Shown: positions 3,579-54,320 of the stretch, piece after piece
Layout of the letters: every line of letters begins with the position of its first letter
How positions within the stretch are numbered: the first letter of the stretch is position 1
Assembly: GCF_001411805.1 (NCBI RefSeq)
Contig: NZ_CP007213.1
Location: 1,922,001-1,986,000, forward strand
Direction: 5' to 3'
Source: Burkholderia plantarii
GTDB lineage: Bacteria; Pseudomonadota; Gammaproteobacteria; Burkholderiales; Burkholderiaceae
Length of the DNA: 64,000 bases
The notes under the pieces: generated by a model
The model's input: only the letters and a program-made list of their open reading frames with translations
Told to the model about the DNA's origin: nothing
Databases searched by the model: none
Translations under genes and position numbers: made by a program

Positions 3579-4540
3579 CGGCCGCGGCAGCCGGGCCGCC
3601 CGCTTCGTTCTCGCTGGCCTGCCATGCCTGCGGGCGCTGCTGCAACAGCGCGCCGGCGCTGTCGATGCGCGAGCTGTTCCGGCATCGCGAACGCTTCGCC
3701 GCCTGTCTCGCGATCGGCCGCGTGGCGCGCCGCCGGCCCGGCGAGCGCGTGCGGACCGGCGGCCACGAGCAAGTGCTCGATGCCAACGATGCCGACTCCT
3801 GCAACGCGCTGGCCGACACATTGTTCGTGCGAACCGCGCCGGGGCGGGACTGGCTCGCGCTGACGGCGCAGGGTTTCGACTATCCGTCGCTCGATCGCTG
3901 TCCGGCGCTGGCCGGCGACGGGCGCTGCTCGCTGCACGAGGCGGGCAAGCCGGCGATCTGCGAGGCGGTGCCGCTCGATCCGCTCGCGCCGGACCGGCTG
4001 CAGCCGCTGGTGCTGGCCGCGCGGCGCGACACGGCCGTCTGGTTCGGCGCGGGCTGCCTGCACGATGCGCCGGCGGCGGGCGCGATGCCGCTCGTCGAAG
4101 CGGGGCGCGTGGCGGCGCCGGCGGCGCTCGACGCTTACCGCGAGGCGCTGCGCGTCGAGCGCGCCATCTGGCGCGACGCGGTGGCCGCGCGACTGCTCGC
4201 GAGCGGGGCCGGCTGGGCGCGCAGCTGGGCGCAACTGGCGCCGGGCGCGCGCCTGACGATCCCGGTGGTGCCGGCGCTGCTCGAGATCGCGCGCGTCTCG
4301 GCGCGCTGCCGCGACGCCTGCATCGAGGTCGCCGACTGTCAGCAGCGCCTGATCGCCACGATGATCGAGACGGCGCTCGCGCGCCGGCGCGCCGACGATC
4401 GCGAGGCCACGCGCGAGCTGCGAGGGTTCGCCGAGGCCCTCGTTCGGCTGCGGCGCGAACTCGGCTCGGCCGCGTTCACGGCCTCGGCTCACGCGGCGGT
4501 CGACGCGAACGCCGTCGAGGCGTGGCTCGGCGTGGCCTGA
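3572..4540 (+). CDS. YkgJ-family cysteine-cluster protein
   Basis: 322 residues with the hallmark CxxCxxCC cluster (C17, C20, C23, C24 in CHACGRCCN) plus downstream cysteines (DRCPALAGDGRCSLH, PAICEAVPL, GAGCLHD) that complete a predicted Zn/Fe-S binding domain shared with YkgJ and FliB. YkgJ proteins have no settled biochemical role; FliB-type members methylate flagellin lysines but nothing here points to flagella. The ATG overlaps the previous gene by 7 bases (ATGGTGA), so it belongs to the sulfatase-FGE-NlpA operon. The last ~170 residues are helical and Arg-rich without a recognised domain. The operon ends here and no terminator is obvious downstream. Confidence 0.82.
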   Translation: MVTAAAAGPPASFSLACHACGRCCNSAPALSMRELFRHRERFAACLAIGRVARRRPGERVRTGGHEQVLDANDADSCNALADTLFVRTAPGRDWLALTAQGFDYPSLDRCPALAGDGRCSLHEAGKPAICEAVPLDPLAPDRLQPLVLAARRDTAVWFGAGCLHDAPAAGAMPLVEAGRVAAPAALDAYREALRVERAIWRDAVAARLLASGAGWARSWAQLAPGARLTIPVVPALLEIARVSARCRDACIEVADCQQRLIATMIETALARRRADDREATRELRGFAEALVRLRRELGSAAFTASAHAAVDANAVEAWLGVA

Positions 4541-4943
4541 GGCGGCGACGCGCAGGGCAAGCGCCGTTGCGCGACGAGATGGCGGCGCGACCGGGGGCTG
4601 GCGAGGGTGCCGGGCTCCGGCGCTGTCAGTGCTTTCCGTGTCCGCTCGTGTATGTCCAGTCCGATGACGAACGCCACGTTCGCGTCGGCCTCGGGCGTGC
4701 TGGCCGGGGTGGGCGCGCATGGCTCGCCGATCCTTCCGGCGGGGCAGCGACGCCGCGCCGACGGCATGTGGAAAGCGCGGGGCGCGAGATCCGTCGCCCG
4801 CGTCCCGCGTCGACGCAAAAACGAGGTCGGATCCCGTTCGATGCGATCACGTCGGTTTCCATGCGCAAACCGCCCGGGTTCGCGGCTGACGCGGCCTTGC
4901 GTCCGTTATGACCGCCGATGATATCCGTATCGCTTTTGCTTCG
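4541..4943. other. Intergenic region, no gene seen
   Basis: About 400 bases between the YkgJ gene and the TauD-type promoter. Short open frames exist on both strands but none has a convincing ribosome site, codon bias or recognisable product. The 3' half becomes less G+C rich as it approaches the promoter at 4944-4972. I see no terminator hairpin with a T run. Confidence 0.5.
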
Positions 4944-4972
4944 TTGTCATGGCGCGGCCGCGGCCGTAGATT
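4944..4972 (+). promoter_or_regulatory. Sigma-70-type promoter of the TauD-type gene
   Basis: TTGTCA (4944-4949), a 17-base spacer, then TAGATT (4967-4972). A start of transcription near 4979 would leave a leader of about 25 bases before the GTG at 5003. The same architecture, with the same bases TTGA-y-GTTTT after the -10, recurs at 7224-7252 before the ATPase gene, which strengthens both calls. A regulator such as CysB or SsuR would be expected for a sulfur-scavenging operon but I cannot identify its site. Confidence 0.5.
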
Positions 4973-5002
4973 GACGTTTTCGTTTCGCTGGGATCGTAGA
5001 AC

Positions 5003-5932
5003 GTGAGCGCGTCCGCCGTTTTTGCCTCTTCCCCCTCCGTCCCGGCCGCGGCCGGCCGGTTTTCCGACAATGCGTCCGGGGGCGGGTTCGACATCGTGCC
5101 GTTCGACGGCCCGCTCGGCGCCGAGGTCATCGGCCTCGATCTCTCGCAGCCGCTCGGCGACGCCGCGTTCGCGCGCATCCATCGCGCCCATCTCGATCAT
5201 CACGTGCTGGTGTTCCGCGAGCAGCGCATCACGCCCGACCAGCAGGTGGCGTTCAGCCGCCGCTTCGGCCCGCTGCAGATCCACGTGCTGCACCAGTTCG
5301 CGCTGCCCGGGCATCCCGAGGTGCTGATCGTGTCGAACATCGTCGAAGACGGCAAGCCGATCGGCCTGGGCGACGCCGGCCATTTCTGGCATTCGGACCT
5401 CTCGTACAAGGAGAAGCCGAGCCTGGGCTCGCTGCTGCATGCGCAGGAGCTGCCGGCCGAGGGCGGCGACACGCTGTTCGCGAACATGCACCTGGCCTGG
5501 GACACGCTGCCCGACGCGCTGAAGCGGGCCGTGCAGGGGCGCCGCGCCGAGCACACCTATCTCGCGCGCTATGCCGAGCTGCAGGCGCGCAGCCCGTGGC
5601 GGCCGAACCTGAGCGCCGAGCAGATCGCGCAGGTCAAGGCGGTCGAGCAGCCGATCGTGCGCACGCATCCGGAAACGGGCCGCCGCGCGCTGTTCGTCAG
5701 CGAGCATTTCACGACGCGCATCGTCGGCCTGCCCGAGGACGAGAGCCGCGCGCTGCTCGACGAGCTGTTCGCCCACAGCGTGCGCGACGCGTTCGTCTAC
5801 CGCCACCAGTGGCGCGATCACGATCTGGTGTTCTGGGACAACCGCTCGCTGATGCATCTGGCGGCCGGCACGCCCGACCACCTGCGCCGCAAGCTGTATC
5901 GCACCACGATCGAAGGCGACGTGCCGGTCTGA
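5003..5932 (+). CDS. TauD/TfdA-family Fe(II)/2-oxoglutarate dioxygenase
   Basis: 309 residues. Iron-binding facial triad visible as H130-x-D132 (in FWHSD) and the distal H285 (in NRSLMHLA), with the 2-oxoglutarate-binding Arg expected in the following RRKLYRTT segment. Family members hydroxylate taurine, alkylsulfonates, sulfate esters or phenoxyacetates next to a heteroatom, releasing sulfite or an aldehyde. The neighbouring aliphatic-sulfonate-type ABC importer suggests organosulfur use (tauD, atsK or ssuD-like role), which is inference. The start is a GTG with only a weak purine tract (TAGAA) before it; no ATG is available before the conserved domain. Confidence 0.88.
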   Translation: MSASAVFASSPSVPAAAGRFSDNASGGGFDIVPFDGPLGAEVIGLDLSQPLGDAAFARIHRAHLDHHVLVFREQRITPDQQVAFSRRFGPLQIHVLHQFALPGHPEVLIVSNIVEDGKPIGLGDAGHFWHSDLSYKEKPSLGSLLHAQELPAEGGDTLFANMHLAWDTLPDALKRAVQGRRAEHTYLARYAELQARSPWRPNLSAEQIAQVKAVEQPIVRTHPETGRRALFVSEHFTTRIVGLPEDESRALLDELFAHSVRDAFVYRHQWRDHDLVFWDNRSLMHLAAGTPDHLRRKLYRTTIEGDVPV

Positions 5933-46234: not shown

Positions 46235-47122
46235 TCAGTTCGGCGTCAGCACGACGAGGCCGGCGAGCTGCGCCGTGGGCAGCCAGAGCGCCAGCTCGGC
46301 CCGGATCTCGCCCTCCGGGCGCCGCGTGCGGCGCGCCGCGGCACGCGCGCAGTCGCTGAGCGTGGCCGCGCGCCGGGCGGCGTGGCGCAGCGCGAAGAAC
46401 TGCCAGTCGGCGAGCCGCTCCATCGACACGCGAAACTGCTGGCGGCGGATCGCGACGTAATCGCGCCGGTCTTCGGCCGGCTCGTGAGATTCCTGGCCGC
46501 GCAGCCAGGGCCGGAAGCCGTCGGCCGCGTGGCGCAGCGCGAGCAGCCGCGTGGTGTCGGGCAGGCTCAGCGCATGGGCGTCGCCGGCCAGCAGCACCAG
46601 GTCCCACAGATCGTCGGCCGGCACGGCGGCCGGTGCCTGCCCCTCGCGGCCGCCGGCGCGGCCCGATTCGGCGATCGCGCGCTCCAGCCGCGCCAGATCG
46701 AGCGCGAAGGTCTGCGTCGGCGGCCGGCGTGCGCCGTTCGCCGCGCGCCGCTGCGAATGCAGCAGGAACGCCGGGAACCGCGCGCCGAGCGTGTGCAGCG
46801 ACGGCGAGCGCGACGGATGCCGGTTCAGGTACGAACGCGCGAAGAAGCCGAACAGCTGCGGGCCGAGCATGCGCCGCAGCGCCGGAAACTCGGTTTCGAG
46901 GCACGAGATCAGGCGGATCCAGTAGCCGTCCGCGTAGATCGCGAGGCGCCGGCGCGCGTCGACGCCGGCCGGCGTGTCGACCACGGCCGCGAGGTCGAGG
47001 CCGTGACGCGCGTCGGCCAGCGCGAGCCCGGGGCCGAGCCCGGCCGGGTGCGTGGTGGCGGCCTGCATCCAGCGCTGCACGGCGGCCAGCGAAAGCTCGC
47101 CGCGGCGGGCGGCGTCATCCAT
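46235..47122 (-). CDS. DUF2063 protein (HvfC/BufC-type partner of the MNIO enzyme)
   Basis: 295 residues, cytoplasmic. The N-terminal DUF2063 domain is visible (LSLAAVQRWMQAATTHPAGL, RLAIYADGYWIRLISCLETE, FPALRRMLGPQLFGFFARSY), and the C-terminal half has a mixed helical fold (ADWQFFALRHAARRAATLSD). In bufferin and related clusters this protein helps the DUF692 oxygenase bind or deliver its peptide substrate. Its ATG overlaps the stop of the DUF692 gene by eight bases (ATGGATGA), so both are translated together. Last gene of the minus-strand operon led by the ferritin-like gene. Confidence 0.87.
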   Translation of the reverse strand: MDDAARRGELSLAAVQRWMQAATTHPAGLGPGLALADARHGLDLAAVVDTPAGVDARRRLAIYADGYWIRLISCLETEFPALRRMLGPQLFGFFARSYLNRHPSRSPSLHTLGARFPAFLLHSQRRAANGARRPPTQTFALDLARLERAIAESGRAGGREGQAPAAVPADDLWDLVLLAGDAHALSLPDTTRLLALRHAADGFRPWLRGQESHEPAEDRRDYVAIRRQQFRVSMERLADWQFFALRHAARRAATLSDCARAAARRTRRPEGEIRAELALWLPTAQLAGLVVLTPN

Positions 47123-48146
47123 CGATGGTCTCCGGCGTGGGCAGGTGCAGCGGGGTGGAGGTGGCCATTTCCCCCTCCCTCTCCCGTTCCATGGCGGCGC
47201 CGGCCGCGCTGTCGCCTCCGGCCATCGGCAGCGCCTCACCGCGCGTCACGCGGCGCGCCTTGTCGAGTTCGGCGAGCAGCCCGTCGTAGTCGGGCAGGTT
47301 CGCGTCCCATTCGAGCAGCGTGGCCACGCCGCCCGTGAGCTGCTGCGCGAGCGCGTAGAGCGCCCACACGCCTTGCGGCACCGGCTGGTCGTGCGTGTCG
47401 ATCAGCGTGTCGCCCCAGGCCGTGTGGCCGGCCAGGTGGATCTGCACCACGTGGTCGGGCGGCAGCGCGCGCAGGTAGGCCTGCGCGTCGAAGCGGTGGT
47501 TGAACGCGCTGACGTAGACGTTGTTGACGTCGAGCAGCAGGCCGCAGCCGGTGCGCTCGGCGAGCCGCGAGAGGAATTCGCATTCGCTCATCGTCGAGCT
47601 GCGGAACTGGATGTAGCTCGACGGATTCTCGAGCACCAGCGGCCGGCCGAGGAACTGCTGGACCGCGTCCACGCGCGCGGCGACGTGCTCGAGCGAGGCC
47701 GCGTTGAACGGCAGCGGCAGCAGGTCGTGCGAGTTGTGCGAACCGAGCCCGGTCCAGCACAGATGATCGGATACCCAGACGGCGCGCACGTCCTGCATCA
47801 GGTCGCGCAGCTTCGTCAGGTAGGCCAGGTCGAGCGGCGCGTCCGAGCCGATCGACAGCGACACGCCGTGCATCACGATCGGCACGTCGGCGGCCAGCCG
47901 GTCGAGCATCGCTCGCTGATACCCGGCGTCCTCGAAATAGTTTTCGGAAATGATCTCGAACCAGTCGACGCGCGCGCCGCCGGCAAGGATGGCCGGCAGG
48001 TGCTGCGGGCGCAGCCCCACGCCGAAGCCGAGATTCGGCAGGCCCAGGCGCGGCGCGCGCGCCGGCCCCGGCGCGGCACGGGCCGGGCCGGGGCCGGCGG
48101 GCGATGCCGCCGGGCCGATCTCGTCGGGATTGACGGTAACGGACAT
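47115..48146 (-). CDS. DUF692 multinuclear non-haem iron oxygenase (MNIO, BufB/MbnB family)
   Basis: 343 residues, TIM-barrel-like. Putative iron ligands in the expected order: VMHGVSLSIGS, WVSDHLCW, LVLENPSSYI, LLLDVNNVYVS, VVQIHLAGHTAWGDTLIDTH and LLEWDANLPDYD. DUF692 enzymes use a di- or tri-iron centre and oxygen to remodel cysteines (methanobactin MbnB, bufferin BufB) or cleave peptide backbone (TglH) in ribosomal peptides. The start is 12 bases downstream of the ferritin-like gene's stop, and the gene overlaps the DUF2063 partner. An Ala/Pro-rich extension (~35 residues) precedes the conserved core. No short precursor gene is seen. Confidence 0.92.
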   Translation of the reverse strand: MSVTVNPDEIGPAASPAGPGPARAAPGPARAPRLGLPNLGFGVGLRPQHLPAILAGGARVDWFEIISENYFEDAGYQRAMLDRLAADVPIVMHGVSLSIGSDAPLDLAYLTKLRDLMQDVRAVWVSDHLCWTGLGSHNSHDLLPLPFNAASLEHVAARVDAVQQFLGRPLVLENPSSYIQFRSSTMSECEFLSRLAERTGCGLLLDVNNVYVSAFNHRFDAQAYLRALPPDHVVQIHLAGHTAWGDTLIDTHDQPVPQGVWALYALAQQLTGGVATLLEWDANLPDYDGLLAELDKARRVTRGEALPMAGGDSAAGAAMEREREGEMATSTPLHLPTPETIDG

Positions 48147-48158
48147 GTGAACGCTGGA

Positions 48159-50282
48159 TCAGGTCGACGGCGGCAGGGCGATGCGCAGGTCGGTGGCCGG
48201 CGGCGGCGTGTCCTGCGGCTTGTAGTTCGGGTCCTGGTGAGCCCGCACCGTCTCGACGGCCTTCCACGCGGTGTCGTAGACGGAGTCGCCGTACCGGATT
48301 TGCTGGAGTACCCGATTGCCGTCGGCATCCGTGAGCTCGACCGGATGGCCGTCCGGGTCGAACTTGTAGAGCTGCATCGTCAGCGTTTCGCGCTTCGGAT
48401 ACAGCTGCGAGGCCGAAATCGGCACCGCGCAGCCGCCGTAGCCGCCGCACTTGTTGTCGGCCGGTGCGCTGTACAACGTCGGTGCGCCGCAACCGCCGCC
48501 GACCTCGGCACCGGTGAGCTGCACGTTCGACGACGAGCAGTTGCCGCCGCCCTGGGTCGACTGGACGAAGCCGCAGCCACCTTGCGTCGCGCAGAGATTG
48601 GAGCCCTTGCAGCTGTGGTAGGTCGCCTGCGCCGCGCAGTCGGCGCCGCCCGAGCCGTCCAGCGACAGCGACTGGCAGGCGTGATTCAGGGCGCGTGCCG
48701 CGCCGGCCTGCACCCCCACGGGGGCATCGGTCGCCGCGCGCAGGGTCGGCGTTTCGCCGTAGACCGCCCAGAACAGCGCGATGCGATCGCCCGAGCCCAC
48801 CATCGACGGGAACGGGAATTCAACCGACGGATCGGACCAGGACTTCGACAGCACCGTCGTGATGCCGGCGAGTGCGCCCTGGGCGACGTTGTCCAGAACC
48901 GCGGCCGGCGTGTTCAGCTTCAGCGCGTTCAGCGCGTCGGCCACCTGCTGCGGCTTCGGAATGTTGGCGGGCGCCTTGGACTCGTCGTAGTCGGCGGTCG
49001 TCAGCATCTCGGCCGTCCATTTCTTGCCCGCGGCATGCCATTGCCGCCACGTCGTCACGTTGCCGATCCATTGCTCGGCGATCAGGGCGAAGCGGTCGTA
49101 GTGCGGAATCTTGCCGTTGTCCACGCGGGCGATCGCGTCGTCGCTGTCGGGCAGTTGCTTGCCGACATCGTCATAGGACGGATAGTCCGTCGCGAGCGCA
49201 TGCGCATCGGGCTGGAACTGATCGAGCACCACGTTGGCCTCGAGCAGCGCAACGGGGCGGGCGAGCATCACGCCGCGCTGGCGCGCGGTCTCGTGGACCA
49301 TGGCGAGATACGCCTTGATCGTGGTCTCGCTGATGCCGCCTTCGCCCTGGTCGCAGATCGCCAGGATCATCTCGATGGCCTGGAGTTGCGCCTGCAGCGC
49401 GGACGCCGAGCCGATCTGCGACGGCATCTTCGGGTACTCGGCCATCGGGTGCGTGCCCGCCTTGCTGTTGAAGAGGTCGCGCTGGCCGGCGAACATCTTT
49501 TCCCAGAGCGTCACGCCGTCCGTGTACTGGATGGTCGTGTACTGGAGCAGGCAGTAGTACATCCAGCTGATCGTGCCGAACATCGGCAGATCGGTTTCGC
49601 TGTCGTGCGCCTTCCAGCCGTCGAACGGAACCTCGGGGAAGTACGCGTACTTGCGCTCGCCCTCCGGCTTGAGCTGCCCTTGTGCGAGTTCGTCGTTCTG
49701 CTCGATGATCATGAACAGCGCGAGCTGGCTCGGCGTCAGCTCCTTCAGCGTGATGCTCGTCTCCGGCAGCGGCGTGTTCAGGTCCGTCAGGTCGATGATG
49801 TGCGGAATGGTGGTCTGGTCCGCGCCGTAGCAGGTCCAGTTGTAGCGCTGGTCCTGCAGCGCCGGACTGTTGAAGTCCGGTGCCAGGCCGAGCGTCGCGC
49901 ACAGGTTCGACGCCATCTGCAGGTGCAGCATTTCGTCGATGAACACCGAGAAGATCGTGTTGTAGGCCGACTGGTTGGCGATCGCGACGGCATTGTCCCC
50001 GGCACTCTTCTGCGGGTCGTTGGCCGGGATGCGGCCAATCGAGCGGCCCGGCCAGACGCGCCCCTTGTAGTAGTCGACATCCTGCGCGTTGATCGCGTGC
50101 GTGCCCTGGATCGACTTCATCGCGCTCATGTAGAGCGGGATGGTGAACAGCTCGACGTTCACGGCCGCCTGCAACAGGGCGCGTACCGCGGAAACATCGG
50201 ACAGGAAGTACTTGAGCTCGCGATTGACGATCTGGGAGGGATTCTCGGGGATTTTCCCGAGCATCGTTGAAGACGTGGTCAT
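48159..50282 (-). CDS. Ferritin-like protein with cysteine-rich C-terminal insert (candidate MNIO substrate)
   Basis: 707 residues, no signal peptide. N-terminal ferritin-like bundle of the VioB type (~20-330), with E44 in VNVELFTIPLY, E117-x2-H120 in FIDEMLHLQMAS and E194 as likely iron ligands. A helical middle section follows. Residues 535-617 hold nine cysteines in a Gly/Ser-rich insert (YHSCKGSNLCATQGGCGFVQ; DNKCGGYGGCAVPI), three spaced C-x5-C-x5-C and two more C-x5-C. A C-terminal beta-rich segment (TMQLYKFDPDGHPVELTDAD) ends the protein. It leads an operon with DUF692 and DUF2063 genes, and no small precursor is nearby, so the insert may be the modified substrate. Whether it binds metal or is processed is unknown. 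Confidence 0.8.
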   Translation of the reverse strand: MTTSSTMLGKIPENPSQIVNRELKYFLSDVSAVRALLQAAVNVELFTIPLYMSAMKSIQGTHAINAQDVDYYKGRVWPGRSIGRIPANDPQKSAGDNAVAIANQSAYNTIFSVFIDEMLHLQMASNLCATLGLAPDFNSPALQDQRYNWTCYGADQTTIPHIIDLTDLNTPLPETSITLKELTPSQLALFMIIEQNDELAQGQLKPEGERKYAYFPEVPFDGWKAHDSETDLPMFGTISWMYYCLLQYTTIQYTDGVTLWEKMFAGQRDLFNSKAGTHPMAEYPKMPSQIGSASALQAQLQAIEMILAICDQGEGGISETTIKAYLAMVHETARQRGVMLARPVALLEANVVLDQFQPDAHALATDYPSYDDVGKQLPDSDDAIARVDNGKIPHYDRFALIAEQWIGNVTTWRQWHAAGKKWTAEMLTTADYDESKAPANIPKPQQVADALNALKLNTPAAVLDNVAQGALAGITTVLSKSWSDPSVEFPFPSMVGSGDRIALFWAVYGETPTLRAATDAPVGVQAGAARALNHACQSLSLDGSGGADCAAQATYHSCKGSNLCATQGGCGFVQSTQGGGNCSSSNVQLTGAEVGGGCGAPTLYSAPADNKCGGYGGCAVPISASQLYPKRETLTMQLYKFDPDGHPVELTDADGNRVLQQIRYGDSVYDTAWKAVETVRAHQDPNYKPQDTPPPATDLRIALPPST

Positions 50283-50382
50283 ATGTGCCTCTGTAGGGAT
50301 TTTCCACCTCGACCCGAACGGGCATGGCGGCTTGATTTTTTGCATTCCCACGGCGCGGGAGCGATAGCGCCATGGCGGATGC

Positions 50383-51095: not shown

Positions 51096-52460
51096 ATGAA
51101 AAAGACGTGGATTGCCGTGGCCGCCGCCTGCCTGATCGCCGTCGCCCCCGTGCATGCGCAGAGCTCTCGCACCAACTGGGTGGTGAACCAGATCTACAAC
51201 GCCAACCATCCGTTCGCGGCCACCGACAGCACCGATCTCGCGACCAAGATGTCGACCATGGCCGCCGATTCGTTCGCGTTTTTCCGCGGCACCGATCACA
51301 TCTTCTATCAGGATATGCTGACGCTGCCGGCCTCGAACTACACCACCTCGCAGACCGGCTACACCTGGATCGGCGGCGACGCCCACATCGGCAACTTCGG
51401 CGCGTGGCAGGACAGCGGCGGCAACACGGTATTCGGCGTCGACGATTTCGACGAAGGCTATCTCGGCCAGTACGTCTGGGACCTGCGGCGCCTGGCGACC
51501 AGCATGGTGCTGGTCGGCCGCGCCAACGGCATCGCCGACGGCGACATCACCACCGCCATCAAGACCATGGTCGGCGCCTATGTCGGCGAGATGAGCGACT
51601 TCAAGGGCAGCAGCGACGAACTGAGCTTCCAGCTCAAGAACGGCAATACCTCGGGCGTGGTGCAGTCGACGATCGGCGACGCCAAGGACGACAGCCGCTC
51701 GGACCTGCTCGCCAAATACACGCGGGTGAGCGGCGGCGCGCGCAGCTTCCAGACCATCGCCGGCAGCCTGGTGCCGGTGGACGGTACGACCTATGCCAAT
51801 CTCTCGGCGGGGATGAGCAGCTACATCAGCAGCATCGGCTCGTCGAAGCAGTACGCGGCCAGCTACTACAAGGTGAAGGACATTCACCAGAAGATCGGCT
51901 CGGGCGTGGGCAGCCTCGGCAAGCTGCGCTACTACATCCTGATCGAGGGGCCGTCGTCGTCCACCTCCGACGACGTGATCCTCGAGGTGAAGCAGGAGAC
52001 GGCGAGCGCGGTGGCCGTGGCGAGCGGCAACGGGCAGGCGCTCGCCTCGGCCGACGGCAGCAACGACGCCGCGCGCGTGGCGATGACCAACAAGGCGCAG
52101 ACGCTGAACGCCGACGTGCTGGTGGGCTATGCCACGGTCAACGGCGTGAACTACACCTTCCACGAGAAGTCGCCGTATCAGGAGGACTTCGACTACACGA
52201 AGCTGACCAGCGCGGGCAAGCTCGCCACGGCGGCCACCTATCTCGGGCAGGCGCTGGCCTCGGCGCACGCGATCTCCGACCAGGACTACGACAGCGCGAT
52301 CGTGACCTACAGCATCGACAAGCAGGTGACCGACGCGATCACGAGCACGAGCGGGCTGCAGACCGAGATCTCGAACTTCGCGTTCAGCTACGCGAGGCAG
52401 GTGAATCTGGACTGGCAATCGTTCGTCGGCGCGTATCAGGCCGGCACGCCGCTGTATTGA
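51096..52460 (+). CDS. Secreted DUF2252 protein
   Basis: 454 residues. Cleavable signal peptide (residues 1-22, VAPVHA-QSS). The DUF2252 domain is visible in DSFAFFRGTDHIFYQDML, TWIGGDAHIGNFGAWQDSGG, VFGVDDFDEGYLGQYVWDLR and FHEKSPYQEDFDYTKL. DUF2252 proteins share a kinase-like fold (G-D-x-H-x-x-N-F and D-F-D-E resemble the kinase HxD and DFG sites), but those usually stay in the cytoplasm; export is unusual because ATP is absent outside. Preceded by an intrinsic terminator 20 bases upstream. Function unknown. Confidence 0.78.
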   Translation: MKKTWIAVAAACLIAVAPVHAQSSRTNWVVNQIYNANHPFAATDSTDLATKMSTMAADSFAFFRGTDHIFYQDMLTLPASNYTTSQTGYTWIGGDAHIGNFGAWQDSGGNTVFGVDDFDEGYLGQYVWDLRRLATSMVLVGRANGIADGDITTAIKTMVGAYVGEMSDFKGSSDELSFQLKNGNTSGVVQSTIGDAKDDSRSDLLAKYTRVSGGARSFQTIAGSLVPVDGTTYANLSAGMSSYISSIGSSKQYAASYYKVKDIHQKIGSGVGSLGKLRYYILIEGPSSSTSDDVILEVKQETASAVAVASGNGQALASADGSNDAARVAMTNKAQTLNADVLVGYATVNGVNYTFHEKSPYQEDFDYTKLTSAGKLATAATYLGQALASAHAISDQDYDSAIVTYSIDKQVTDAITSTSGLQTEISNFAFSYARQVNLDWQSFVGAYQAGTPLY

Positions 52461-52623: not shown

Positions 52624-53649
52624 TCAGTAGTACAGGTAGACGTTGCCGGGGCTCACGGCCACGCTGTAGTTGCATTGCGGCGAAATCGACGAACTGGCCT
52701 TGCCGGCCTGCCAGGGCGGCGACAGCACGTTGCCGTTGGTATCCCATACCGTCACGCCGTAGAACTGCGTCATCGCCTGTGGAGGCAACTGGTTGCAGTT
52801 GCTGATGCCGTACACCTCCAGCACGCCGCCGAACACCCACTGCAACTGGCCCTGCGGCGCCGTGTTCAGCGTCACGCTGCGGCCGTTGGTGGTGTCCTGC
52901 GTGACGATCGACCACGAACCGCAATCGTAGACGCCCGTGCCGCAGAGCGAATACGTGTCGCCCACGATCTCGTCGCCCGGCGAGACGCTGGCCGGATCGG
53001 TGTGGGTGGTCGTGCCGGCCGTGCAGCAGTTCCAGCTCGCGATGGTCCAGGCGTGATCGCCGAAGCCGTTCCAGCCCAGCACCGGCTGCAGGATCGACTG
53101 CACGGTGGGCAGCTGCTCGAGCCCGGGGAAGAAGAACACCGTCTGGTTCTCGGCGTCGCCCGGCGTGGACGGCACCTTCCAGCTGGCGCGCAGCCGGCCG
53201 ACGTTGCTGCCGTTGTTGTAGTTCGCGCTCTCGATCCACCCGGTGTAGGCGGGATTCACCGTGTCGGCGGCTGCGGCCGGCTGCTGGCTCGGCGCGTTCG
53301 GCGCGATGCCGTGGCCTTGCCGGTCAAAGTGCGCGCGGCCGCATCTGGCCGCCGCGCGCACGCTGCCGTCGTGCTTGAGGATGCTGCCGTCGGCCCGCAG
53401 GCGTTCGTCCGCATGGATGGTCTGCACGCATTCGGGCGCGAAATAGCCGTTGGGCGTGACGACGTAGTCGAGCGGCACGTTCGCGGGGCGCGCGGCCGCG
53501 CTCAGTGAAGCGACGCTCGTGAGTTGCGCGGACGGCACCGCGGCATCGACGGCGTGTGCCGGCGCAGCGGCCACCGGAAGCAGACACGCCAGGGCGAGCA
53601 GCCAGGCCCGGGCAGGCCGGGCGAGAAACCGACGTTGATTGGAATTCAT
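52624..53649 (-). CDS. Secreted glutamic-peptidase-like protein
   Basis: 341 residues. Signal peptide (residues 1-33, AAAPAHA). After a propeptide-like stretch (~34-135) comes a beta-rich domain: YTGWIESANYNNGSNVGRLR, ASWKVPSTPGDAENQTVFFF, SILQPVLGWNGFGDHAWTIA, VSPGDEIVGDTYS and WVFGGVLEVYG. The order W...Q...E (Q188 and E278) is like G1/neprosin-type glutamic peptidases, so a secreted acid-active protease is my guess, not proof. Six or more cysteines in the domain could form disulfides. Convergent with the DUF2252 gene; the start is well separated from the AT-rich region beyond 53650. Confidence 0.55.
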   Translation of the reverse strand: MNSNQRRFLARPARAWLLALACLLPVAAAPAHAVDAAVPSAQLTSVASLSAAARPANVPLDYVVTPNGYFAPECVQTIHADERLRADGSILKHDGSVRAAARCGRAHFDRQGHGIAPNAPSQQPAAAADTVNPAYTGWIESANYNNGSNVGRLRASWKVPSTPGDAENQTVFFFPGLEQLPTVQSILQPVLGWNGFGDHAWTIASWNCCTAGTTTHTDPASVSPGDEIVGDTYSLCGTGVYDCGSWSIVTQDTTNGRSVTLNTAPQGQLQWVFGGVLEVYGISNCNQLPPQAMTQFYGVTVWDTNGNVLSPPWQAGKASSSISPQCNYSVAVSPGNVYLYY

Positions 53650-54320
53650 TGGGCATCCTTTGGGAATGAAGGTTTTTTGAATTGCCGCAACAAGCGAATG
53701 AGTCCAGAAATGCGCGAAACGCTTCGGGACTGGACGTCCTGCGCCCCCCTCCGGAGCCCAGGATGGCTCACACATGTACCATGCAATCAGCGCGGCGCGG
53801 AATATTATTCCGGAGTGCCCAGTAATTGAGTGAGTGGAATGAATTCGCATCACGATTGCTCAACGGTTCGTGATTATTCGAATCATAATTAATTAAAAAA
53901 TGTCGGCCGCATCTCATCACCGAGGCAACCCCATGTGTCGCGGCGGCGCGCAATCGGGATCGGACGGGCTCTGGCGGCTGGCACCCGGCAAACCGGCCAT
54001 GGGCGGCGCATTTGGCATGATTGCGAGCGATCCATGATTTCCTTTCCGGACGCGGCCCGGCCGTGACGCCCGACCGATGAGGCCGGAATGCGTCGACGCG
54101 TGACGCGGCCGGCGGTTTGCTGCGCCGCAGAACGAAACCGATCCTCGATTTCGCCAACCCCGAATGCGCCGGGCGGCGCAAACGATTATTTCGGCACGAC
54201 ACATCGTAAAAACCGGCGATATTGTGATTCTTTTTGATGGAAATTTCATGCGGCACCTCATGAAAGCCAGAATGCAATGCACAAATCGACGTAGTTTCGC
54301 GTTCCGTTGAAATATCAGGC
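53650..54320. other. A+T-richer intergenic region
   Basis: About 780 bases (53650-54432) lie between divergent genes. The stretch 53815-53900 is clearly A+T rich (AATCATAATTAATTAAAAAA near 53881) and probably carries a promoter of the minus-strand gene. Open frames here on the minus strand are not supported by ribosome sites. The composition shift suggests acquired DNA. Confidence 0.4.

Follow-up and report, generated by a model that had tools for sequence, protein, structure and literature searches.

The closest described relatives of the locus reported here are the Buf2/BufA2 bufferins ("Cys-Lys" captophorins). Thiooxazole formation has been described in captophorins and bufferins, 4 Da being the mass loss reported for it (PMC13097082). 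The first published search took precursors of <200 residues with a Sec signal peptide, longer candidates and candidates without signal being given as well, and the same 2025 survey states the modification of full-size proteins by MNIO enzymes as a possibility (PMC12452194). The window analysed here is a stretch of 64,000 nucleotides from Burkholderia plantarii (contig NZ_CP007213.1, positions 1,922,001 to 1,986,000). It contains an operon in which a gene for a 707-amino-acid (aa) ferritin-like protein with a Cys-rich stretch is followed by an MNIO (DUF692) gene and a DUF2063 gene. The Buf2/BufA2 bufferins and the window locus both have MNIO and DUF2063 partners, both families carry the Cys motif CxGxNxCxxxG, and both are found by the same profile of a stand-alone Cys-rich protein described below. 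The Buf2/BufA2 precursors are small, Sec-exported, periplasmic metallophores, whereas the window protein is 707 aa long, has no evident signal peptide and is fused to a ferritin-like core. Comparative genomics indicates that the 707-aa protein is itself very likely the MNIO substrate, as an earlier sequence-only reading had proposed, and the locus is probably an MNIO-DUF2063 modification operon whose precursor is fused to a ferritin-like protein.

A search for genes of the same ferritin-like family (PF12902) covered 150 family-mates, 398 genomes from the phylum and 198 Bacteroidota genomes; with the surroundings fetched, it gave 40 distinct places (that of G539 is locus L052). The Cys module was present in all 13 places where the PF12902 gene adjoins an MNIO gene, fused in 10 and as a separate gene in 3, and in none of the 27 places without MNIO; the 40 places are not independent, since several are from close relatives, and three ferritin hits are doubtful. 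Six-frame searches with profiles of two fused tails and of the stand-alone protein gave the same division, with matches at E<=0.001 in 12/12 linked loci (the window not among them) and 0/27 unlinked loci. A wider set of MNIO queries run on the family and phylum loci found no further MNIO. By this comparison the Cys module tracks MNIO adjacency, and the prediction that the module is present only beside a DUF692 gene is borne out.

The split form of the system is found in Bacteroidota. In loci L204-L206 the ferritin-like gene stops short of the Cys stretch; the latter has a gene of its own (195-216 aa), and the MNIO gene comes next. Searched with a profile of these three stand-alone proteins, 395 Bacteroidota genomes gave six with the long form, counting the three from which the profile was made; each of the six has a ferritin-like gene just upstream of it and an MNIO gene just downstream. 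A seventh genome had a short bufferin-like precursor and an MNIO with no ferritin-like gene detected. Comparison of the full alignment of the window protein's family (type I) with the stand-alone proteins gave a probability of 97.1 and an E value of 5.2e-11 over 108 columns, corresponding to residues 531 to 695 of the window protein. The tail alone scored 77.8 against the stand-alone proteins, compared with 15.9 for the reversed profile, 20.5 for the best of 40 column shuffles and 13.5 for the ferritin core alone. On these scores the 707-aa protein has a C-terminal domain homologous to the stand-alone Cys-rich protein, and the relation of the two is best described as gene fusion or fission between a precursor and a ferritin-like partner. 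This is the main argument for the substrate status of the protein.

In Bacteroidota the MNIO does have a small Cys-rich gene beside it. Because that gene encodes the same module unfused and beside a ferritin-like gene, the case for the module as substrate is strengthened. The Gly/Cys-rich "insert" of the sequence-only reading is the start of a C-terminal precursor-like domain (about residues 531-707) and not an isolated insert. A second fused subfamily, type II (L111, L112 and L149), is another PF12902 protein with a longer Cys tail, for which 487 homologues were found and the best 120 listed. Its Cys segment is also of low confidence in the predicted structure, and the tails of the two types align with E 1.1e-11 (score 75.9, best shuffle 21.9). 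Taken together, these comparisons suggest that the enzyme encoded next door very probably remodels the fused Cys-rich stretch chemically. In the type II locus L112 a 453-aa protein without Pfam family (4519-5880) is encoded directly upstream of the ferritin-like gene.

The Cys region defines the family of the window protein, as seen from its motif counts and invariant cysteines. A search with the 707-aa protein gave 849 homologues at E<=0.001 from several phyla. All of the best 120 contain PF12902, and by script 117 of these 120 keep the motif HxCxGxNxCxxxGGCG, 118 the motif NxCxxxGGCA and 116 the PPST end. The closest other protein among the matches listed (91%) is from Burkholderia plantarii. 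Nine of the 13 cysteines of the window protein lie in residues 536-618. Those at 536, 558, 564, 570, 612 and 618 in the module, and Cys 151 in the core, are invariant in a 36-member alignment. The module is mostly predicted to be disordered, the AlphaFold2 (AF2) confidence (predicted local distance difference test, pLDDT) being <50 at residues 517-572, 578-601 and 606-621. A search with the module only (residues 530-640), which admits proteins of 0.55-1.75 times the query length, gave 445 hits; PF12902 was present in 117 of the best 120 and the three hits without it are all on contigs of <=2.5 kb. No signal peptide is apparent in the 707-aa protein, which when read by eye has no hydrophobic N-terminal stretch. 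Within the genus sample 7 of 65 genomes had a match, four of them full-length (window genome included), and no second copy of the protein was matched in its own genome.

The three-gene layout on the minus strand had been read exactly from the sequence, as judged by the coordinates of the open reading frames (ORFs) and the Pfam families. A gap of 12 bases (48147-48158) separates the ferritin-like and MNIO genes, and the MNIO and DUF2063 genes overlap by 8 bases (47115-47122). Inner starts were used for the first and third genes, for which the mechanical ORFs are longer (GTG at 50351 and 47239).

Features of the window locus (positions in the window; residues of the 707-aa protein)
Feature	Position	Strand	Description
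Ferritin-like/Cys-module fusion gene	48159..50282	-	707 aa; ATG at 50282, end at 48159; ORF list, PF12902, AF2 model
Ferritin-like core	48738..50237	-	residues about 16-515
Cys module	48408..48692	-	residues about 531-625, 9 Cys; candidate modified region; conserved columns
Cys motif 1, HxCxGxNxCxxxGGCG	48570..48617	-	H556-G571
Cys motif 2, NxCxxxGGCA	48426..48455	-	N610-A619
C-terminal part	48162..48407	-	residues 626-707; ends LPPST
MNIO gene (PF05114)	47115..48146	-	343 aa; candidate modifying enzyme; Pfam and NCBIfam, motif residues
DUF2063 partner gene (PME-type 1)	46235..47122	-	295 aa; PF09836; partial HvfC match below cut-off

The core of the window protein scores 69.4 bits against PF12902 (gathering cut-off 22.3), which places it in the ferritin-like fold. 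Residues E44, E117, H120, E194, D311, E314 and H394 are invariant and compatible with a predicted ferritin-type dimetal site. The "VioB-like" label given to this core by the sequence-only reading fits the family only weakly, with a match (E 0.24) in one of the 36 type I proteins; the solved relative is CC_0557 (PDB 3HL1, PF12902). Its chain has 317 aa and so leaves no room for a Cys module.

The core also gives rise to the best-surviving alternative, in which the Cys module is the substrate and the ferritin-like domain acts as an additional enzyme. As a dimetal oxidase it would carry the oxidation of the MNIO product further, in cis in the fused forms and in trans in the split form. The core does keep its ligand-like residues (36/36 type I proteins, and 25/25 type II at the counterpart positions), 24 of 25 type II cores give a match at E<=1 to the profile of the enzyme VioB (best E 1e-7), and the ferritin-like protein of Bacteroidota is separate and upstream, as expected of a tailoring enzyme. 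On the other hand, with the substrate fused to it in two large subfamilies, such an enzyme would serve a single product molecule, and the type II matches to VioB (TIGR04492) are partial and do not approach the curated cut-off of 1250 bits (P0121: 10.8). This explanation is rather unlikely.

The MNIO of the window matches PF05114 with 355.8 bits (cut-off 25) and lies above the curated MNIO_BufB cut-off of NCBIfam (359 against 310). In HvfB, replacement of N175, D242 or H244 abolishes activity (PMC13419390). The counterparts of these residues, assigned by the DVNN and DxH motifs, are present in all 104 aligned MNIOs. HLAGP is found in 75 of 81 type I MNIOs, other rows having H, F or Y at the last place. 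In a maximum-likelihood tree of 106 MNIOs, with long branches flagged by the program, the type I rows (83) group in one clade (99/93), the three type II rows form their own clade (100/97) and both together form one group (99/98). The Buf2 MNIOs are nearest outside this group but weakly placed (87/52), and the other MNIOs stand apart. The MNIOs of the ferritin-like loci belong, according to this tree, to a dedicated clade. The partner protein scores 74.7 bits against DUF2063 (PF09836, cut-off 27.2), and the HvfC profile of NCBIfam matches its residues 50-267 with 39.4 bits, under the cut-off of 142.

Since MNIO enzymes require iron (PMC13419390) and the operon order is fixed, the ferritin-like protein could instead be an iron donor or provide oxygen chemistry for the MNIO, the Cys tail being merely a docking or metal-relay segment. 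This is quite improbable given that the tail is homologous to a precursor-like protein that stands alone, resembles bufferin motifs and lies before the MNIO, the position of the precursors in bufABC (PMC12452194).

The operon is conserved well beyond the genus. A contig search found 168 relatives, of which 80 loci were kept, spanning five phyla (Pseudomonadota, Bacteroidota, Acidobacteriota, Ignavibacteriota and Actinomycetota). By tblastn, 78 of the 80 encode an MNIO downstream on the same strand, and its match begins anywhere between 69 bases short of the end of the ferritin match and 327 bases past it; 77 of the 80 encode a DUF2063 protein. The loci that form the exceptions, L005, L051 and L060, are cut off by the end of the contig. 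For each of the two loci without an MNIO, the genome has one on another contig; in one genome it begins at base 92 of that contig, and in the other it is 75% identical to that of the window and is followed by DUF2063. With the window included, both exact Cys motifs occur in 80 of 81 ferritin-like genes. The motifs EGKCG and C[KR]GxNxC were found nowhere outside the ferritin-like gene in the 81 loci, and no other conserved small Cys-rich precursor was found near this MNIO clade in them (top 8 clusters shown), the kind of gene that would have undermined the substrate reading. The eight largest clusters of small Cys ORFs are all limited to Janthinobacterium flanks.

The absence of such motifs, the confinement of those clusters and the co-dependence of module and MNIO (13/13 against 0/27) also stand against the view that the cysteines, left unmodified, simply form a metal or disulphide cluster, the MNIO having some other precursor that escaped notice. 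Unmodified Cys-rich motifs are able to bind Zn or Fe-S, but this view has little probability. Chance adjacency of unrelated genes, for which no argument was found, is refuted by the occurrence of the arrangement in 78 of 80 loci and five phyla.

The link of the module to bufferins was followed with the profile of the stand-alone protein, whose motif resembles that of the BufA2 bufferins and which picks up bufferin-type precursors that had not been selected beforehand. In the 398 phylum genomes ten proteins matched it at E<=0.001, of which one is of type II (4e-46), one of type I (5e-4) and eight are short (2e-5 to 9e-4). Five of the short hits coincide with places found independently by the pattern CKGxNxCKG, three with an MNIO within the 3-kb stretch and two without (G335 and G391). 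Two of the remaining three are bufferin-type precursors beside an MNIO, and the last (G520) has neither a bufferin-like look nor an MNIO. The pattern itself gave 14 matches, with an MNIO in 11 of the stretches. The NCBIfam profile BufA2 (NF050166, cut-off 60 bits) matches all three stand-alone proteins with E 7.5e-5 to 7e-4 (19.8-22.9 bits) and reaches E<=1 with 21 of the 25 type II proteins (best 3.8e-5), below the cut-off where bits are given. Some Buf2-type precursors occur as tandem pairs before an MNIO (L176/L185, L180/L187 and L181/L188) and others have no MNIO within the 3-kb stretch (L178, L186 and L189). A Bacteroidota bufferin-like precursor with repeated CKGxGGC motifs (L235, 4852-4977) adjoins an MNIO gene, with no ferritin-like gene detected.

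Several observations weigh against the 707-aa protein as a bufferin-related MNIO substrate. BufA2 matches only 2 of 36 type I proteins (best E 0.13) and the window protein not at all at E<=0.1; the curated 60-bit score is not reached by it, and because so few type I proteins match, its link to bufferins runs through the other forms. The motif cysteines are not all fixed, as in L077 (7953-9926), the sole exception among the 81 genes, His replaces C564 and GGCG replaces GGCA; this gene still matches the type I module profile (E 2.5e-35). The DUF2063 protein was detected by tblastn in only three of the six split loci. The window partner has no PDB relative by sequence, so an RRE domain in it is not confirmed. 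In the published survey, partners of the DUF2063 kind (PME-type 1) correlate with Sec signal peptides (PMC12452194), which does not hold at the window locus. Metal-responsive operators at p<=0.05 are at chance level (Fur in 4/80 and CueR in 2/80 loci), and none of the general neighbours in these loci points to a metal. Finally, L212, a weak ferritin-like relative from outside the three genome samples (E 2e-4 to the window protein), has no Cys module but an MNIO about 5 kb away on the opposite strand. It was not counted as adjacent because this MNIO matches the bufferin-type MNIO of its own genome (71% identity).

If the 707-aa protein is the MNIO substrate, the following course can be proposed. 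The DUF2063 protein and the MNIO would bind the flexible Cys module, the DUF2063 protein presenting it to the MNIO, as the known roles of MNIO partners suggest. The MNIO would oxidise some of the module cysteines, most likely to 5-thiooxazoles as in bufferins and captophorins, a step proposed from the relatedness to these. The modified product would remain attached to the ferritin-like core, or next to it, as a metalloprotein that is not exported. It would bind a soft metal, for example Cu(I), and the core would contribute a redox or dimetal site; fusion alone suggests this last step. A copper or cytoplasmic function of the product is tentative, with the balance tilted slightly against it. Rather doubtful is a more specific version, in which thiooxazole-type groups of the tail fold onto, or are loaded by, the dimetal core to give a protein-derived metal site in a non-exported mixed-metal protein (e.g. 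iron/copper) of at least five phyla. This would be the first case, to our knowledge, of a large protein whose integral cofactor or storage site comes from a ribosomal-peptide-type modification. The variant gene of L077 offers natural material for asking which cysteines matter.

A DUF2252 gene (51096-52460, plus strand) diverges from the ferritin-like gene in the window and adjoins a 409-aa ORF (52624-53853, minus strand) near the operon that has no Pfam or NCBIfam match at E<=0.1. The source genome (8.08 Mb, 3 contigs) has two more MNIO loci. One (L002, 2393-2704, C1:1654777) encodes a 103-aa bufferin-like precursor with a weak BufA2 match (25.7 bits, under the cut-off of 60). In the other (L003, 1483-3139, C1:464834) the MNIO gene is followed by a gene that by eye looks DUF2063-type, although tblastn with the window DUF2063 was negative, and no recognisable Cys-rich precursor lies directly upstream of the MNIO. 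Elsewhere, genes of the phosphatidylserine-decarboxylase family (PF02666 and PF12588) lie directly upstream of the ferritin-like gene in L070 (6550-7857) and L058 (3664-5115), this neighbour cluster comprising five loci. Locus L147 (6151-6825) encodes another kind of PF12902 protein with two Cys motifs in its C-terminal half, which we take to be CDGSH-like; its stretch contains no MNIO. PF12902 genes have been reported near lodA/lodB in fungi (PMC4417212).

The system is real and widespread, and the substrate assignment is strong on comparative grounds. It suggests that the MNIO family may act on whole proteins, beyond small peptides, and the hundreds of database homologues in fused and split forms make the question of full-size substrates testable. 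The ferritin-like family is at odds with the proposed rule by which DUF2063 partners are found with precursors that are exported. The system also provides a first functional handle on the MNIO-linked PF12902 proteins, whose listed database names are mostly "ferritin-like" or "hypothetical". No description of an MNIO, DUF2063 and ferritin-like arrangement was found among the literature matches listed, which cover main texts, and the words ferritin and VioB are absent from the main text of PMC12452194. Two papers with MNIO- and ferritin-type words together (PMC8224329 and PMC7907618) mean, in the portions available, unrelated proteins. The arrangement is not unique to the strain, being found in five phyla.

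Compared with the known systems, the locus has the parts of an MNIO-DUF2063 operon, that is, an MNIO with the active-site residues, a DUF2063 gene after it and a Cys-motif candidate precursor before it, while the 707-aa protein lies outside the short-peptide definition of precursors. The stand-alone Bacteroidota proteins fit the published group adjamnio-I, cluster I (122-293 residues, 8-21 Cys, gene before MNIO; PMC12452194), with 195-216 aa, 14 Cys (L205), no evident signal peptide and the same gene order, a likeness of length, Cys count and order and not of compared sequence. Going by this description they may already be included under adjamnio-I. The partner of adjamnio-I is PME-type 2, and the sections of the survey that describe it name no ferritin-like neighbour or fusion (PMC12452194), whereas the window has DUF2063. 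The TIGR04222 proteins are also proposed large MNIO substrates with Cys-containing low-complexity segments; unlike the window protein they are membrane proteins, have no DUF2063 genes in the published account and in sizeable part occur without MNIO (PMC12452194). Large bufferin fusions (Buf1 with cytochrome c and FGE-sulfatase, and MerC with Buf) are a precedent for precursor domains on metal-related proteins. These are described in few instances (PMC12452194), whereas the fused family of the window is conserved over phyla and has a split counterpart.

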